Shown here: positions 45,370 through 52,505 of the stretch, one piece after another
How the letters are laid out: every line of letters starts with the position of its first letter
How positions within the stretch are numbered: position 1 is the stretch's first letter
DNA from: Phycisphaeraceae bacterium
Lineage (GTDB): Bacteria > Planctomycetota > Phycisphaerae > Phycisphaerales > UBA1924
NCBI GenBank assembly: GCA_021297895.1
Contig: JAJTHN010000001.1
Coordinates: 1-64,000, forward strand
Direction of reading: 5' to 3'
DNA length: 64,000 nt
Notes under the pieces: generated by a model
Seen by the model: the letters and a program-made list of their open reading frames with translations, nothing else
Database searches by the model: none
Told to the model about the DNA's origin: nothing
Made by a program: the position numbers and the translations under genes

Positions 45370-45452
45370 CCACACGACCGCCCGCGCGTTGCGTTCCCGG
45401 CCCACACACTTCCCCGCACCCGCTCCGGCACGACGCCGCCCGTCCGCGCGCT

Positions 45453-45458
45453 TACGCT
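45453..45458 (+). promoter_or_regulatory. -10 element of a leaderless promoter (psuG)
   Basis: TACGCT ends 5 nt before ATG at 45464. No Shine-Dalgarno is visible. Confidence 0.5.
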
Positions 45459-45463
45459 CGGGC

Positions 45464-46498
45464 ATGTCCAAAGCCCCGAGCACCAAAGCCGCGTCCGCGT
45501 CCGTCGGCACCGCGCAGACCTCGGCCACATCGTCGGCCAAGGCCGCGCCTCACGCCGCCCGCCCCGGCCGGCCGCCGCGCGTCGCCATGGAAACCACGCT
45601 CCTGCTGCACGGGGTTCCCCGCAAAGATGCGCCCGCACTGGCCGATGCGCTCGAGGCCGTCGTCCGCGAGGGCGGCGCGATCCCGTGCCTATCCGGCGTG
45701 GTGCACGGTGTGGCCACCAGCGAACTCTCCGCCGCGCAACTCCGCACCCTGCTTGACGCCCCGCCCGCGAGCGTGCCGAAACTCAACTCCTCCACACTGG
45801 GCCTGGCCATCCATCGCAAGGGCCACGGCGCGACCACCGTCTCGGCCACCATGGAACTCGCCGCCGCAGCGGGCATCCGCGTCTTCGCCACCGGCGGCCT
45901 CGGCGGTGTTCACCGCGGCATGGCCGAGCACCTGGACATCTCCGCCGATCTCGGCGCCCTCGCCCGCTTCCCCGTCGCCGTCGTCGCCAGCGGATGCAAG
46001 AGCATCCTCGACGTGCCCGCCACGCGCGAACTGCTCGAAACCCTCGGCGTGCCCGTCATCGGTTGGCAGACCGATCGCTTCCCCGCCTTCTACCAGCGCG
46101 ACGGCGGCGTCGGCCTCGACGGCCGATTCGACGACATCACCGAACTCGCTTCCTACATCCGCGGCGAGATCTCCCGCACCGGCCGCGGCATCGTCGTCTG
46201 CAACGCCATCCCCGCCGACGCCGAACTCAAGGGCTCCGACTGGGAACGCTGGCTCGAAGAGGCTCAAGCCGAAATCGTCCGCTCCGGCGTCAGCGGCCGC
46301 GACATCACCCCGATGCTCCTGGCCGCGGTCCACCGCCTGAGCGAAGGCGCCACACTCCGCGCCAACATCGCCCTGATCAAGAGCAACGTCCAACTGGCCA
46401 CCAAGCTCGCCGTCGCCATGTCCTCGATGCGCGGCACGCCCTCGCCACGCGCCACCGCCACAACAACCACCACCGCGCCCTCCGGAGCCGCACGATGA
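45464..46498 (+). CDS. psuG: Pseudouridine-5'-phosphate glycosidase
   Basis: A 344-residue manganese-dependent enzyme that cleaves pseudouridine 5'-phosphate into uracil and ribose 5-phosphate. Motifs are METTLLLHGVPR, LSGVVHGVATSEL, SSTLGLAIHRKGHGATTVS, FATGGLGGVHRG, ISADLGAL and VASGCKSILD, then VPVIGWQTDRFPAFY. An Ala/Ser/Thr-rich lead of about 45 residues precedes the enzyme domain. No psuK kinase is adjacent. ATG at 45464 follows TACGCT by 5 nt, consistent with leaderless start. The stop overlaps the start of a small membrane protein. It fits with deoC in a nucleoside salvage context. Confidence 0.93.
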   Translation: MSKAPSTKAASASVGTAQTSATSSAKAAPHAARPGRPPRVAMETTLLLHGVPRKDAPALADALEAVVREGGAIPCLSGVVHGVATSELSAAQLRTLLDAPPASVPKLNSSTLGLAIHRKGHGATTVSATMELAAAAGIRVFATGGLGGVHRGMAEHLDISADLGALARFPVAVVASGCKSILDVPATRELLETLGVPVIGWQTDRFPAFYQRDGGVGLDGRFDDITELASYIRGEISRTGRGIVVCNAIPADAELKGSDWERWLEEAQAEIVRSGVSGRDITPMLLAAVHRLSEGATLRANIALIKSNVQLATKLAVAMSSMRGTPSPRATATTTTTAPSGAAR

Positions 46499-46775: not shown

Positions 46776-47654
46776 TTACGCCCCCACCGGGTGCCAGACC
46801 GTCTTGAACTCCACAAACGGCTCGACCCACGATGGCGCGTGGCACGCGATCGCGTCGGCATGATCGATCTTCGGGCGGATCTTCACCCGCTTGAGGTTCT
46901 CCGCCACGCCCGTGCCGATCGCCTTGCCCAACTCTTCGCCCACGGCCCCCGCGTGAATGCCGTCGACATCGCGATGCGCAGCCAGCACGGGCACAAGTTC
47001 ATCCAGCGCGCCGGTGAGAACGTTCGCCGCCCCCGCGGGCAGATCGCTCGTGGCCATCACCTCGCCCAGCACGCTGGCGACCGCCGGGTTGCCCTGCGTG
47101 ACGATCACCACGCAGTTGCCGACACACATCGCCGGCGCAAACAGCGACACCATGCCCAGCAGCGACGGCTCGCCGCGACCCGGCACCACGCCGATCACGC
47201 CCGTCGGCTCGGGCGTTGAGATGTTCCAGTACGGCCCCGCGACCGGATTCTGGCTCCCGAGCACCTGCGCGATCTTGTCGCTCCAGCCCGCGAACGCGAC
47301 CAGCCGGTCGACCGCCAGTTCCACCTCGCGCTGCGGCGCAAGCCCGCTCGCGCCGGCCCCTCCGGCCACGCTCTCCAGCAGCCCCGCGACCTCCGCCCGC
47401 TTGCCCTCGAGCATCTCGGCCATGCGGTAGAGAATCTGCCCGCGGTTGTACGCCGTCGCCCCGCTCCAGCCGGGCAGGGCCTTGCGCGCCGCCACGACCG
47501 CCTCGCGCAGGTCCTTGCGGCTGGCGTTGCACGAATGCCCGAGCACCCGCCCATCGAGGCCGACAATCGGCTCGCTCCGCCCGCTCTCTGTCCGCGGGAA
47601 CGCACCACCGATGAACAGCTTGTACGTCTTGAGAACATCCAGCCGATCGCTCAT
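46776..47654 (-). CDS. Short aldehyde dehydrogenase family protein lacking the catalytic half
   Basis: A 292-residue protein matching the N-terminal two thirds of aldehyde dehydrogenases: LFIGGAFPRTESGRS, then REAVVAARKALPGWS, YNRGQILYRMAEML, PEPTGVIGVVPGR and FAPAMCVGNCVVIV. It stops at about the point where a full enzyme would continue to the catalytic cysteine, and no EL-G-G-K-S or catalytic C is present. It therefore cannot be an ordinary dehydrogenase. It may bind NAD or serve as a partner of the full-length enzyme at 48740-50347. AAGGAG lies about 9 nt before ATG. A deoC gene in the same region recalls deoC-ALDH-ALDH clusters of actinobacteria. Confidence 0.72.
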   Translation of the reverse strand: MSDRLDVLKTYKLFIGGAFPRTESGRSEPIVGLDGRVLGHSCNASRKDLREAVVAARKALPGWSGATAYNRGQILYRMAEMLEGKRAEVAGLLESVAGGAGASGLAPQREVELAVDRLVAFAGWSDKIAQVLGSQNPVAGPYWNISTPEPTGVIGVVPGRGEPSLLGMVSLFAPAMCVGNCVVIVTQGNPAVASVLGEVMATSDLPAGAANVLTGALDELVPVLAAHRDVDGIHAGAVGEELGKAIGTGVAENLKRVKIRPKIDHADAIACHAPSWVEPFVEFKTVWHPVGA

Positions 47655-47701: not shown

Positions 47702-48733
47702 ATGATGCTCACCCGCAGAACACAAACCGCCGCGTTCACCCTCATCGCCCTCGCGGCCCTCGCCACCATGGGCTCGCTCATCGGCTGCACCCCAGCGCCG
47801 CAGCGGCCCGCGCCCGCCATCACCGCGCCATCCGCCGCCCCGGCGACCGCGCAAGCAGTCGCGTCCGCCGCCGCGCCCACAACCCCCACCGCCGACCGCG
47901 TGCGCGACTATCCCGGCCTGCAGAACGTCGCCGCCTTCGCCCCCGGGGTCTTCAACGGCTCGATGCCCGAAGGAACCCAGGGCCTCGACTCGCTCGCCGC
48001 GCTCGGCGTCCGCACCATCATCTCCGTCGACGGCGCTCGCCCCGAAGTCGACGCCGCCTCCGCCCGCGGCATGCGCTACATCCACCTGCCCATGACCTAC
48101 TCCGGCGTCAGCGAAGAGCGCTCGCTCCAGATCGCCCGCGCCATCCGCGATCTGCCCCGGCCCATCTACATCCACTGCCATCACGGCAAGCACCGCTCCC
48201 CCGCCGTAGCCGCCGCCGCCCTCATCTGCCTGGGCACCATGACCCCCGAGCAGGGCCGGGCCATGCTCAAACTCTCCGGCACATCGCCCAGTTACCCCGG
48301 CCTGTACCGCAGCGTCGAAACCGAACGCCCGCGCTCCACAACCGAAATCAACAGCGCCGACGCGACCTTCCCCCCCATCGCGCAGGTCTCCTCGTTCGTC
48401 GGCGGCATGGTCGACATCGACCACGCCTACGACCACCTCAAGATCATCGCCGCGAACAACTGGACCACCCCCGCCTCGCACCCGGACCTGGTCGCCGCGG
48501 CCGAAGCCGGGCGGATGGTCGAAACGCTCCGCGCCATTACCTCCCGCACCGACTCGCACCCGCGTCACGCCGACATGCTCGCGATGCTGCACGACAACAT
48601 CGACGCGGCCAGCAAACTCGAAGACCTCATCGTCCGCAAGGCCCCGCCCGCCGACCTCACCGCCGCCATGAGCCTCATCAGCGCCTCGTGCAAGGACTGC
48701 CACAAGGTCTACCGCGATCGCTCCGCATGGTGA
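47702..48733 (+). CDS. Lipoprotein fusing a tyrosine-phosphatase-like domain with a cytochrome c' type haem site
   Basis: A 343-residue lipoprotein (lipobox ending IGC, cysteine 29) followed by an Ala/Pro/Thr-rich linker. The first domain (about 65-205) has the layout of dual-specificity phosphatases: GVRTIISVDGARPEVDAA, then the loop IHCHHGKHRSPAVAAA with a Cx5R signature. The second domain (about 230-343) is helical and ends SASCKDCHKVYR, a CxxCH haem-binding site at the C-terminus as in class II cytochromes c'. I know no common protein with this pairing. It suggests haem- or redox-linked control of a periplasmic phosphatase or an anchored gas sensor. It lies between the two aldehyde dehydrogenases on the opposite strand. 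Confidence 0.78.
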   Translation: MMLTRRTQTAAFTLIALAALATMGSLIGCTPAPQRPAPAITAPSAAPATAQAVASAAAPTTPTADRVRDYPGLQNVAAFAPGVFNGSMPEGTQGLDSLAALGVRTIISVDGARPEVDAASARGMRYIHLPMTYSGVSEERSLQIARAIRDLPRPIYIHCHHGKHRSPAVAAAALICLGTMTPEQGRAMLKLSGTSPSYPGLYRSVETERPRSTTEINSADATFPPIAQVSSFVGGMVDIDHAYDHLKIIAANNWTTPASHPDLVAAAEAGRMVETLRAITSRTDSHPRHADMLAMLHDNIDAASKLEDLIVRKAPPADLTAAMSLISASCKDCHKVYRDRSAW

Positions 48734-48739
48734 GCCCGC

Positions 48740-50347
48740 TCAAGCGTCCACATTCACGTACGGCTTGAGCCCGTGCAGGCCGCCCTCGCGGCCGAAGCCG
48801 CTCTCCTTGTACCCGCCGAACGGGCTCGCCGCATCGAAGCGGTTGTACGTGTTCAGCCACAGCACGCCCGCCTCGAGTTTGCGTGCGATGTGCAGCACCT
48901 TGCTGCCCTTGTCCGTCCACACGCCCGCCGCGAGCCCGTACGGCGTGTTGTTCGCCCGCAGCAGCGCCTCCTCCGGCGTGCGGAAGGTCATCACCGTCAG
49001 CACCGGCCCGAAGATCTCATCGCGCGCGATCGTGTGCGCGGGCTGCACGCCCGTGAACACGCACGGCTTGCAGAAGTACCCCCGGCTCGGCAGCGCACCG
49101 GCGCCGCCCTCGAACAACTCCGCCCCCTCGTCCTTGCCGACGCCGATGTAGTGGCGGATCTTCTCCAGCTGCGCCCGCGAGTTGATCGCGCCAAGGTCGG
49201 TGTTCTTGTCCATCGGGTCGCCCACGCGCAGGCTCTTGAGCCGCAGCCGGAGCTTCCGCACGACCTCGTCCACCACGCCCTCCTGCACCAGCAGCCGCGA
49301 GCCCGCGCAGCAGACGTGACCCTGGTTGAAGAAGATCCCCTCGACGATCCCCTCGACCGCCTGATCGATGCTCGCATCATCAAAGATGATGTTGGCGCTC
49401 TTGCCGCCGAGTTCCAGCGTCAGCCGCTTGCCCGTGCCGGCCACCGCCATCGCGATGCGCTTGCCGACCTCCGTGCTGCCCGTGAACGCGACCTTGTCCA
49501 CGCCCGGGTGGTTCACCACCGCCGCGCCCGTCGCCCCCGCGCCGGTGACGATGTTCACCACGCCCGCGGGCAGGCCCACCACGTGGAAAATCTCCGCCAG
49601 CCGCAGCGGCGTCAGCGGCGGTGTCTCCGCCGGCTTGAGCACCACCGTGTTCCCCGCCGCCAGCGCCGGAGCGATCTTCCACGCGGCCATGAGCAGCGGA
49701 AAGTTCCACGGAATCACCTGACCGCACACGCCCACCGCCCGGGGCTCTCGCACGCCGGGGAACGCATACGCCAGTTTGTCCGCCCACCCCGCGTAGTAAA
49801 AGAAGTGGTGCGCCGCCAGCGGCACATCCACATCCCGCGACTCGCGGATCGGCTTGCCGCCGTCGAGCGTCTCCAGCACCGCCAGTTCGCGCGCACGCTC
49901 CTGAATCCTCCGCGCGATGCGATACAGGTACTTGCCACGCTCGGCCCCCGGCAGCGCCTGCCACGCCCCCAGCGCCGCGCGGGCCGCGCCAACCGCCGCA
50001 TCCACGTCCGCCGAAGTTCCATCGGCCACGCGCGACAGAACGGCCTCCGTCGCCGGGTTGATCGTCTCGAACGTTCCGCCCCCTGCCGACTCGACAAACC
50101 GGCCGTTGATGTAGTGGCCGTACCGCTCGGCGATCGCGACCTTGACGGTCTCCGGCGCCGGGGCGTAATCCCACCCGCGTCCGGCGGCGCTCGCGGCAGG
50201 AGTCACCGCCGCGACGTGCTGCTTGGCGTGCCCGCTGGCATGACCGTTGGCATGACCGTTGGCATGCGCGGTCTTCGCCGGCCCGCGGGCCGTCTTCTCG
50301 GAGCGGGTGTTCGTCGAACGCGCGGCTGGTGCTTTGGCCTTGGCCAT
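48740..50347 (-). CDS. NAD(P)-dependent aldehyde dehydrogenase
   Basis: A 535-residue aldehyde dehydrogenase. Domain landmarks are INPATEAVLSRVADG, VIPWNFPLLMAAWKIAPALAAGNT, VAFTGSTEVGK, the ELGGKSANIIF motif with the general base glutamate, the catalytic cysteine region GIFFNQGHVCCAGSRL, and the EIFGPVLTVMTF loop. The first 55 residues are a Ser/Lys/Ala-rich lead with His-Ala-Asn-Gly repeats, unusual for this family. The start at 50347 follows TACACT by 6 nt without a Shine-Dalgarno. With deoC (acetaldehyde producer) upstream in the same direction it may oxidise acetaldehyde from deoxyribose degradation. Confidence 0.93.
   Translation of the reverse strand: MAKAKAPAARSTNTRSEKTARGPAKTAHANGHANGHASGHAKQHVAAVTPAASAAGRGWDYAPAPETVKVAIAERYGHYINGRFVESAGGGTFETINPATEAVLSRVADGTSADVDAAVGAARAALGAWQALPGAERGKYLYRIARRIQERARELAVLETLDGGKPIRESRDVDVPLAAHHFFYYAGWADKLAYAFPGVREPRAVGVCGQVIPWNFPLLMAAWKIAPALAAGNTVVLKPAETPPLTPLRLAEIFHVVGLPAGVVNIVTGAGATGAAVVNHPGVDKVAFTGSTEVGKRIAMAVAGTGKRLTLELGGKSANIIFDDASIDQAVEGIVEGIFFNQGHVCCAGSRLLVQEGVVDEVVRKLRLRLKSLRVGDPMDKNTDLGAINSRAQLEKIRHYIGVGKDEGAELFEGGAGALPSRGYFCKPCVFTGVQPAHTIARDEIFGPVLTVMTFRTPEEALLRANNTPYGLAAGVWTDKGSKVLHIARKLEAGVLWLNTYNRFDAASPFGGYKESGFGREGGLHGLKPYVNVDA
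50223..50268. repeat. 12-base tandem repeat in the aldehyde dehydrogenase lead
   Basis: TTGGCATGACCG-type units repeated about three to four times. On the minus strand they encode H-A-N-G / H-A-S-G, a histidine-rich low-complexity lead. Confidence 0.65.
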
Positions 50348-50423: not shown

Positions 50424-51269
50424 TTACCGCTTCGTCGCCGCCGGACGCGTGATGAACGTCACCGAAACCGTCGACGACACCTCGACCGTCCCCGGCACGT
50501 ACGCGTCATCGCCCTGGCCCGGCCCGTCCTGCGACTCGTTGGCCACCTGCGACATCCGGTTGCCCCAGCCGCCGAACTCGGCCACATCCGTGTTGGCCAC
50601 TTCAACGCCGACGATCTGCAGCCCAAGCGCCTCGGCCATCACGCTCGCCTTGCGCTTGGCCGCGCCCGCGGCCATCTTGATCGCCTCCTCGCGCGCACCG
50701 ATCGCCTCCCTGATCCCGAACGCGACGCGGTCGACACGGTTCGCACCCGCCTTCAGCCCCGTATCGATGATCCTCGCCGCGGCCTTCAGGTCCGTCGTCC
50801 GCACGCTCAGCGTGATCGCCGAGCGATACCCCACGATCTTCGCCGCCTCATCGCCGCTGTTGCGTTGCTCGTACCGCGGCGACAAGTCCGCCGAGCCGGT
50901 CTGAAACTTCGCGCCCTCAAGCCCCATCATCCTCAGCGCCCGAACAACCGCGTCCATCCGCTCCGTCGCCTCGTTCTGCGTCTGCCCGGCCGTCGCCCCG
51001 AGCACCTCCACCCCGAGCACCACATCAAGATGGTCCGGCGTTCGCTGCACCCGCGCCAGCCCCGTCGACGTGATCTTGCCCTGCACATCCTCCGCTCCCG
51101 GCGGCAACTTCCCTGCCTGCGCAGCCTCACGCCCCGATGCCGTCTGCTGCGCCATCGCGCCGGTCACCGCCGGCCAGGAAACCATCATCAAGCCGCACGC
51201 GGCGAGCACCGCCGCCGTCGGGCCGAATCGCCGAACAACTCTCGCCGCGGATGTCATTGCATCGTTCAT
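50424..51269 (-). CDS. SIMPL-domain secreted protein (DUF541)
   Basis: A 281-residue exported protein with a signal peptide (about residues 1-40, ending AMA). The mature domain matches the SIMPL/DUF541 pattern: ITSTGLARVQRTPDHLDVVLGVE, then ERMDAVVRALRMMGLEGAKFQT, IVGYRSAITLSVRTTDL and a late EEAIKMAAGAAKRKASVMAEALG segment that precedes the C-terminal strand. The family is periplasmic, with members linked to signalling and stress, but without a settled biochemical role. A GGAG lies 8 nt before ATG. It lies between deoC and the aldehyde dehydrogenase in the same direction. Confidence 0.85.
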   Translation of the reverse strand: MNDAMTSAARVVRRFGPTAAVLAACGLMMVSWPAVTGAMAQQTASGREAAQAGKLPPGAEDVQGKITSTGLARVQRTPDHLDVVLGVEVLGATAGQTQNEATERMDAVVRALRMMGLEGAKFQTGSADLSPRYEQRNSGDEAAKIVGYRSAITLSVRTTDLKAAARIIDTGLKAGANRVDRVAFGIREAIGAREEAIKMAAGAAKRKASVMAEALGLQIVGVEVANTDVAEFGGWGNRMSQVANESQDGPGQGDDAYVPGTVEVSSTVSVTFITRPAATKR

Positions 51270-51443: not shown

Positions 51444-52379
51444 TCACGCCTCCGCCGTGTCGTACCGCGATGAGTACCGCCCCTTGCTCAGCCACAGCAC
51501 CTGCCGGCACACATCGTTCACCAGCGCGCTGGCGCCGAATCGGAACCACTCCGGCGTCAGCCACGCATCGCCATCATCGATCACGCCCATCGTTTCCTTG
51601 ACCATCACCAGGTAGTGTAGCGCCTGCTTGGCCGTGCGGATGCCGCCCGCCGGCTTCATGCCGATCTTCCGCCCCGTCGCCAGCGCGTAATCACGGATCG
51701 CCTCGAGCATCACCAGCGTCACCGGCATCGTCGCCGCGGGCTCGACCTTGCCCGTGCTGGTCTTGATGAACCCGTGGTCCGCGCGCGTGTCGTGGAGCAC
51801 CTCGATCGCCAGATCGCTCACGCGCCGAACATTGTCCAGCGTCTCCAGTTCGCCCGTCTCGAGGATCACCTTCAGGTGCGCTCGCCCGCAGGCCTCGACC
51901 GTCGCGGCGATTTCCTCCCGCACCTTCTTCTCATTGCCCGCCAGGAACTCGCCCCGGCTGATGACCATGTCCACCTCATCCGCCCCGGCCTCCACCGCCC
52001 GGCGAACATCCTCCAGCCGCACCTTCAGCGGATACTGCCCGCTCGGAAAGCCCGTCGCCACGCTGGCAACATTCACGCCCTTGCCCCGCGCGCCGAACCG
52101 GTCCAACTCCTTCCGCGCCGCCCCGACCATGGTCGGATACACGCACACCGCCGCCACCGCCGGAAGCGTCTCCAGCCCCGCCGTGCCGTCTCCCGGATTC
52201 ACGGCCTTCCTGCACAGCGACCGGACCTTCTCCGGCGTGTCCTTGCCCTCCAGCGTCGTCAGATCGATCATCGACAGCGCCAGCTCCAGCCCCGCTCGCT
52301 TGGCCGAAGCCTTGATCGACCGCTTGGTAAAGCTCGCCGCCCGCTGCTCGGCCATCACTTTGTCAACCGTGTGCGCCAT
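51444..52379 (-). CDS. deoC: Deoxyribose-phosphate aldolase
   Basis: A 311-residue class I aldolase splitting 2-deoxyribose 5-phosphate into acetaldehyde and glyceraldehyde 3-phosphate. Core motifs are SMIDLTTLEGKDT, AVCVYPTMV, VASVATGFPSGQ, EAGADEVDMVISRGEFLAG, LKVILETGEL, HGFIKTSTGK with the Schiff-base lysine, and IGMKPAGGIRTAKQA. TACCCT lies 5 nt before ATG on the minus strand. The in-frame extension upstream is Gly/Arg-rich and non-coding. It heads a run with the SIMPL protein and an aldehyde dehydrogenase; acetaldehyde from its reaction is the likely substrate of the latter. Confidence 0.95.
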   Translation of the reverse strand: MAHTVDKVMAEQRAASFTKRSIKASAKRAGLELALSMIDLTTLEGKDTPEKVRSLCRKAVNPGDGTAGLETLPAVAAVCVYPTMVGAARKELDRFGARGKGVNVASVATGFPSGQYPLKVRLEDVRRAVEAGADEVDMVISRGEFLAGNEKKVREEIAATVEACGRAHLKVILETGELETLDNVRRVSDLAIEVLHDTRADHGFIKTSTGKVEPAATMPVTLVMLEAIRDYALATGRKIGMKPAGGIRTAKQALHYLVMVKETMGVIDDGDAWLTPEWFRFGASALVNDVCRQVLWLSKGRYSSRYDTAEA

Positions 52380-52384
52380 GCCGC

Positions 52385-52390
52385 AGGGTA
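52385..52390 (-). promoter_or_regulatory. -10 element of a leaderless promoter (deoC)
   Basis: TACCCT ends 5 nt before ATG at 52379 on the minus strand. It is divergent from the GNAT promoter 116 nt away. Confidence 0.5.
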
Positions 52391-52505
52391 GGTCGTCACT
52401 CCGCGCCGACTCTTCGCTGGCCGCACGACCAACTCCTCGTTCCACCACAACTTCAACGATCCTCGGCCGCCCCAACGCCTTCCCAACGCCGCACCGCGCG
52501 CCACA

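Follow-up and report, generated by a model that had tools for sequence, protein, structure and literature searches.

Enzymes of the PTP fold are usually controlled through thiol oxidation. Haem attachment through a CxxCH motif implies export, and cytochromes c' have a distal haem site that contains no ligand residue and binds gases. The protein described here joins a PTP fold to the haem-binding bundle of a class II cytochrome c. Its phosphatase part resembles TpbA, a periplasmic dual-specificity phosphatase (DSP) of Pseudomonas aeruginosa (4r0s), in its PTP/DSP fold and its export, and TpbA together with 2m3v provides the best profile match in the PDB; however, TpbA carries no haem module, has the loop HCKHGNNRT and places its general acid in a column that is unconserved in the family. 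The PFA-DSP/Siw14 inositol-pyrophosphate phosphatases (AtPFA-DSP1, 6byf) share a G-K-H-R loop, the lack of a WPD general acid and the fold (Z about 15.5), but they are eukaryotic and without haem, and the likeness rests on P-loop and fold. Some recognised members of the Cys-based DSP/PTP superfamily lack a general acid, AtPFA-DSP1 among them; its P-loop consists of Cys150, Lys151, Arg152, Lys154, His155, Arg156 and Thr157, its authors propose that His155 acts as base and that the proton comes from the pyrophosphate substrate, and a disulfide may link its Cys92 to the catalytic Cys (PMC9038691). The Blh DUF442 sulfurtransferase domain (PF04273) is a more distant PTP-fold relative by profile, with a shorter active-site loop and a fusion to a dioxygenase rather than to a cytochrome. 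On the haem side, cytochromes c556 and b562 resemble the second part in forming a four-helix bundle with a His near the C-terminus and a helix A Met at an axial position, the axial ligands in cytochrome b562 being Met7 and His102 (PMC7864044). Unlike them, the family described here has its cytochrome fused behind a phosphatase, keeps Trp254 invariant and carries a DHPDL segment downstream of helix A. Cytochromes c' (Cytochrom_C_2, PF01322) share the fold and haem site of this part, which differs from them in placing a Met at the distal position.

The window, the whole stretch of 64,000 nucleotides that was analysed, encodes this protein at 47702..48733 on the + strand, where all features within the gene also lie. 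The ORF runs from an ATG at 47702 to a stop at 48731-48733 and, as full-length homologues also indicate, specifies a 343-aa lipoprotein with a DSP phosphatase module and a class II cytochrome c module. The signal peptide (47702..47788) ends in the lipobox LIGC with a lipidated Cys29, as read off the sequence, in keeping with the exported lipoprotein of the initial annotation; a loose lipobox pattern is present in 49/99 homologues. A proline/alanine-rich stretch follows the lipobox, then the phosphatase module, and finally the C-terminal CKDCHKVYR at residues 330-338. The lipobox and the CxxCH module imply that the protein is exported, as are members of the TpbA family, and the window's genome encodes c-type cytochrome assembly. 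In Pfam, the window protein matches PTP-SAK (PF22784) at 4.7e-6 with 27.2 bits, just above the cut-off of 27, whereas DSPc (3.8e-4) and Cytochrom_C_2 (0.0017, 19.7 bits against a gathering score of 26.5) fall below their cut-offs. In the PDB, a 97-member family profile finds cytochrome c prime at 5e-5 and TpbA at 1.4e-10, and at E<=0.01 individual matches are found for Cytochrom_C_2 in 81/97 members, with E-values as low as 8.4e-8, and for PTP-SAK in 78/97. Because the family profile matches both domains, the doubt left by the modest single-protein scores disappears.

The fusion is a phylum-wide family, carried by about one third of the Planctomycetota genomes sampled. In an even sample of 294 such genomes, 119 matched, about 96 of them across both modules, so that the fusion occurs in other planctomycetes, where the initial annotation had suggested looking for it. 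Among 61 relatives, 33 matched at E<=0.001, about 28 of these being the fused protein. When bacterial and archaeal genomes were scanned with a pattern, 166 related stretches emerged; nearly all of the best 80 carry a Planctomycetota label, and the few with another label are MAGs. Two copies lie on plasmids, in Aquisphaera giovannonii and Planctomyces sp. SH-PL62, and are annotated 'dual specificity protein phosphatase' and 'hypothetical protein', respectively; annotation has no other names than these two for members of this widespread and strictly conserved fusion. An alignment of 99 homologues, one copy of which is fragmentary (L028, G032), keeps Cys159, Arg165 and CxxCH in 98/98 comparable homologues at 32-52% identity, so the motifs are not chance occurrences, and the mutated Cx5R or CxxCH named beforehand as contrary evidence did not occur. 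Invariant apart from truncated rows are Cys159, the loop HHG, Arg165, CxxCH, Met236, Trp254, Asp110 and Tyr133. A fusion of this kind was not reported in the literature searched, which mostly excludes subscription journals, and the fusion protein had no match in a phage-defence library. Long open frames upstream of the module in three homologues (L034, L038, L220) look like low-complexity frame read-through, L022 being the exception.

The phosphatase module (residues 69-219, 47906..48358) is assigned by its PTP-SAK/DSPc and TpbA profile matches and by VIA-align Z values of 15.8 to TpbA, 16.6 to VHZ and 15.6 to Siw14. Its P-loop HCHHGKHRS (residues 158-166, 48173..48199) has the HCx5R(S/T) form of the Cys-based DSP/PTP superfamily, with Cys159 and Arg165 as catalytic residues, and the family retains HCHHG in 98/98, K163 in 93/99, H164 in 98/99 and R165 in 99/99, in agreement with the DSP-type Cx5R loop first noted in it. 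Tyr133 (98/98) precedes position 134 (48098..48103 for the two), where TpbA has its general acid. Of the 99 homologues, 51 have D at this position, 34 have N and 7 have S; the window protein has Ser, and the relatives with split gene pairs have K or S. An Asp/Glu general acid of a WPD-equivalent loop is thus not conserved in the fusion family. The GKHR loop and the unconserved general acid recall the PFA-DSP/Siw14 pyrophosphate phosphatases, although in sequence the family is closer to TpbA than to PFA-DSPs. Asp110 (48029..48031), invariant in 98/98, probably falls in the column of AtPFA-DSP1 Cys92, as judged from an HMM alignment. No second cysteine is strongly conserved among the 99 homologues: the best candidate, position 204, is Cys in 58/99 and is replaced by Ser in the protein studied here, so a thiol switch is not evident. 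Additionally, the conserved motif SGTSPSYPGLY (48275..48307) follows the P-loop and precedes the cytochrome module, with G193, T194, Y198, G200 and L201 kept in 96-99/99.

In a different chemistry, the PTP-fold module would not hydrolyse phosphate. Its cysteine would instead take part in redox or sulfur reactions with an oxyanion, the haem would accept the electrons, and the DUF442 sulfurtransferases would be its distant analogues. The length of the active-site loop reportedly separates rhodaneses from phosphatases, a rule attributed to Bordo and Bork in 2002, and here the loop is Cx5R in 98/98, phosphatase-like rather than the shorter rhodanese-like form of DUF442/Blh, the loop of 3gxg being one residue shorter in the profile alignment. 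The family profile nonetheless matches DUF442 (3gxg, 6.3e-6), 45/97 members match BLH_phosphatase, the general acid is unconserved, a haem is fused, and DUF442 itself has the PTP fold yet is a sulfurtransferase (PMC5823870). With the porin and nucleoside contexts described below indicating phosphate, we regard this chemistry as rather improbable.

The class II cytochrome c four-helix bundle spans residues 228-340 (48383..48721); model residues 169-281 align with cytochrome c' 8h28 at a VIA-align Z of 14.1. The CKDCH haem attachment site (48689..48703), CxxCH in 98/98, supplies His334 as the proximal ligand and belongs to a C-terminal CxxCHxx(Y/F/H)R as in class II cytochromes c (PF01322), which bears out the original assignment of this site. 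On the distal side, Met236 (48407..48409), present in 99/99, is the probable axial ligand. Its register could not be taken from sequence alone, as the b562 alignment set Met7 three residues off and the profile matches missed helix A; instead, a second model starting exactly at M236 was used. The first residue of this model pairs with residue 7 in every listed cytochrome cb562 chain, in the anammox cytochrome Kusta0087/0088 with residue 32, which is mutated (C32G, C32M) in those entries, and with residue 16 or 17 of cytochromes c'. Because Met236 is invariant and takes the distal axial place in the model, the haem is probably His334/Met236-ligated, six-coordinate and electron-transferring rather than a gas-binding c' site, and a low-spin His/Met state as in c556-like cytochromes is predicted. 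This speaks against the gas control suggested at first, in which NO or CO on a five-coordinate c' haem would switch the phosphatase. The class II fold and the best matches, which are cytochromes c', favour such a switch, and an axial ligand does not absolutely exclude gas binding, since the related class II complex Kusta0087/0088 (NaxLS) is reported to bind NO (PMC11897245); given the invariant Met at the distal position, however, a six-coordinate haem is predicted and gas control is very improbable.

The two modules appear to form one rigid unit. An AlphaFold model built on the family alignment (pLDDT 95.6, pTM 0.89) packs them tightly, and a pTM of 0.89 in a two-module chain supports a confident predicted placement of one relative to the other. 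Structurally, model residues 4-160 match VHZ, TpbA, SsoPTP, Siw14 and AtPFA-DSP1 with Z 15-16.6, as expected of a PTP/DSP fold, and residues 169-281 match cytochromes c' with Z 14; whole-model fold lists are filled by the DSP part, so that absence of a family from them does not exclude it. The strongest sign that the modules work together comes from relatives in which they are separate. In three phosphatase-only relatives with an -HR loop, from three bacterial families (L143, L144, L145), a separate exported class II cytochrome gene lies directly downstream; the fourth, L152, has none there. This makes 3/4 -HR relatives against 0/23 relatives with an HCxxGxDRT loop (Fisher p=0.0014). Rooting the tree on the DRT group places all fused proteins in a single clade (support 0.86) inside the -HR clade (0.78). 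Since split pairs occur in three families and the fused clade is nested among them, the pairing of phosphatase and cytochrome looks, from these sequences, functional and older than the fusion.

Tethering for localisation only, with a scavenging phosphatase and an electron carrier sharing an anchor and operon history while remaining uncoupled, is the alternative against which this evidence counts. Neighbours vary between genomes and the coupling is something we infer, both of which suit uncoupled modules, but the split pairs seem to predate the fusion, the predicted packing is tight, a conserved motif joins the modules and the pair is retained across the phylum, so mere tethering is unlikely. 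As separate observations, the HCxxGxDRT relatives (L141, L142, L146-L151, L199-L212, L215) constitute a second planctomycete phosphatase-only DSP family with an Asp inside the P-loop, several lipoprotein-like N-termini and never an adjoining cytochrome in the stretches read, and the split-pair phosphatase at L145:1982-2935 (-) contains a second, degenerate DSP-like domain without a P-loop.

Most homologues have no shared neighbours. A conserved operon was considered and rejected, clustered flanking ORFs being mostly antisense shadow ORFs and first neighbours sharing few families; a cytochrome oxidase link was also discarded, as it is seen on the SH-PL62 plasmid and absent at the other loci. 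No Pfam family turns up more often among the 120 first neighbours than Porin_O_P, that of phosphate-selective porins, in 6 against about 0.05 expected from roughly 1.6-2 copies per genome and an assumed 4,500 or so genes per genome; the family was picked after the counts were seen, and the excess is far beyond what such a choice explains. Porin and fusion genes adjoin each other, in varied orientation, in L014, L058, L072, L085, L096, L110 and L138 (G154); Porin_O_P is without a match in the window's genome. At L022:1-2343 the DSP-cytochrome module is fused, in the same reading frame, to a preceding NupC-type Na+/nucleoside transporter (PF07662, 9e-69), and upp lies just upstream of the gene in L088 and L089. 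In the window, a PsuG-like pseudouridine-5'-phosphate glycosidase (Indigoidine_A; 45389-46498, +) and a deoxyribose-phosphate aldolase DeoC (51444-52427, -) make a nucleoside-salvage neighbourhood possible. Together, the porin, NupC, upp and psuG/deoC contexts suggest that phosphate or nucleotides are scavenged, although only a minority of genomes show them.

One clade offers a different context. In L036, L049 and L053 the gene is adjoined on its downstream flank by a hybrid histidine kinase whose sensor region is YfiN-like, and YfiR-like DUF4154 proteins occur among the second neighbours of the homologue set. The kinase and DUF4154 neighbours recall TpbA-TpbB/YfiR of Pseudomonas. With TpbA as the closest solved relative, this would fit periplasmic protein-tyrosine phosphatase signalling in which the enzyme acts on a membrane sensor and the haem provides the redox input; we give it little credence, given the unconserved TpbA general-acid position, the limitation of the kinase to one clade and the greater frequency of porins as neighbours.

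The reading we prefer, tentatively and as somewhat short of probable, is that an electron-transfer haem couples an envelope-exposed phosphatase, acting on small polyanionic phosphates, to redox state; we infer its catalysis, its class of substrate, the redox behaviour of the haem and the coupling. An exported, lipid-anchored two-module protein would present a catalytically competent N-terminal TpbA/PFA-DSP-type cysteine phosphatase with Cys159 as nucleophile, Arg165, a cationic HHGKHR loop and no conserved Asp general acid. Its substrates would probably be small and highly charged (phosphoanhydrides, nucleotides or polyphosphate), entering via phosphate-selective porins. The C-terminal module would carry a His334/Met236-ligated, c556-like electron-transfer haem rigidly packed against the phosphatase, its redox state set by electron exchange with the respiratory carrier pool and either tuning the phosphatase or keeping the catalytic thiol reduced. 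Redox control of the fused phosphatase, part of the original proposal, is possible. The invariant active sites, rigid model, Met236, split pairs, GKHR loop, porins, NupC/upp and cytochrome assembly argue for the redox-coupled phosphatase, whereas the minority status of the porin and nucleoside links, the few shared neighbours, the missing second Cys and a similarity to PFA-DSPs below that to TpbA weaken it. More doubtful, though conceivable, is the broader proposal of a first PTP-superfamily enzyme with covalent haem, in which respiratory-pool redox gates envelope hydrolysis of pyrophosphate-like compounds or nucleotides phylum-wide and joins phosphate or nucleoside scavenging to respiration. 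If true, covalent haem would represent a different control principle for a PTP-fold enzyme and would link electron transport to planctomycete envelope phosphate metabolism.

The gene had also been placed between two aldehyde dehydrogenases (ALDHs) and tentatively linked to them. Both flanking genes exist, but the first (46776-47654, -) is a half-length ALDH of 292 aa that covers 15-233 of 461 positions of the Pfam Aldedh profile, and the second (48740-50347, -) is full-length. Neither adjoins any other homologue, the half-length gene being located elsewhere in relatives' genomes; the ALDHs are beside the window gene by chance, and the dehydrogenase link is not supported. The half-length ALDH occurs in 27/41 relatives, mostly as full-length matches, which marks it as a short family in its own right and not as a pseudogene left by truncation. 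A SIMPL/DUF541 protein of the oxidative stress defence type is encoded at 50424-51269 (-), with the full-length ALDH on one side and DeoC on the other.
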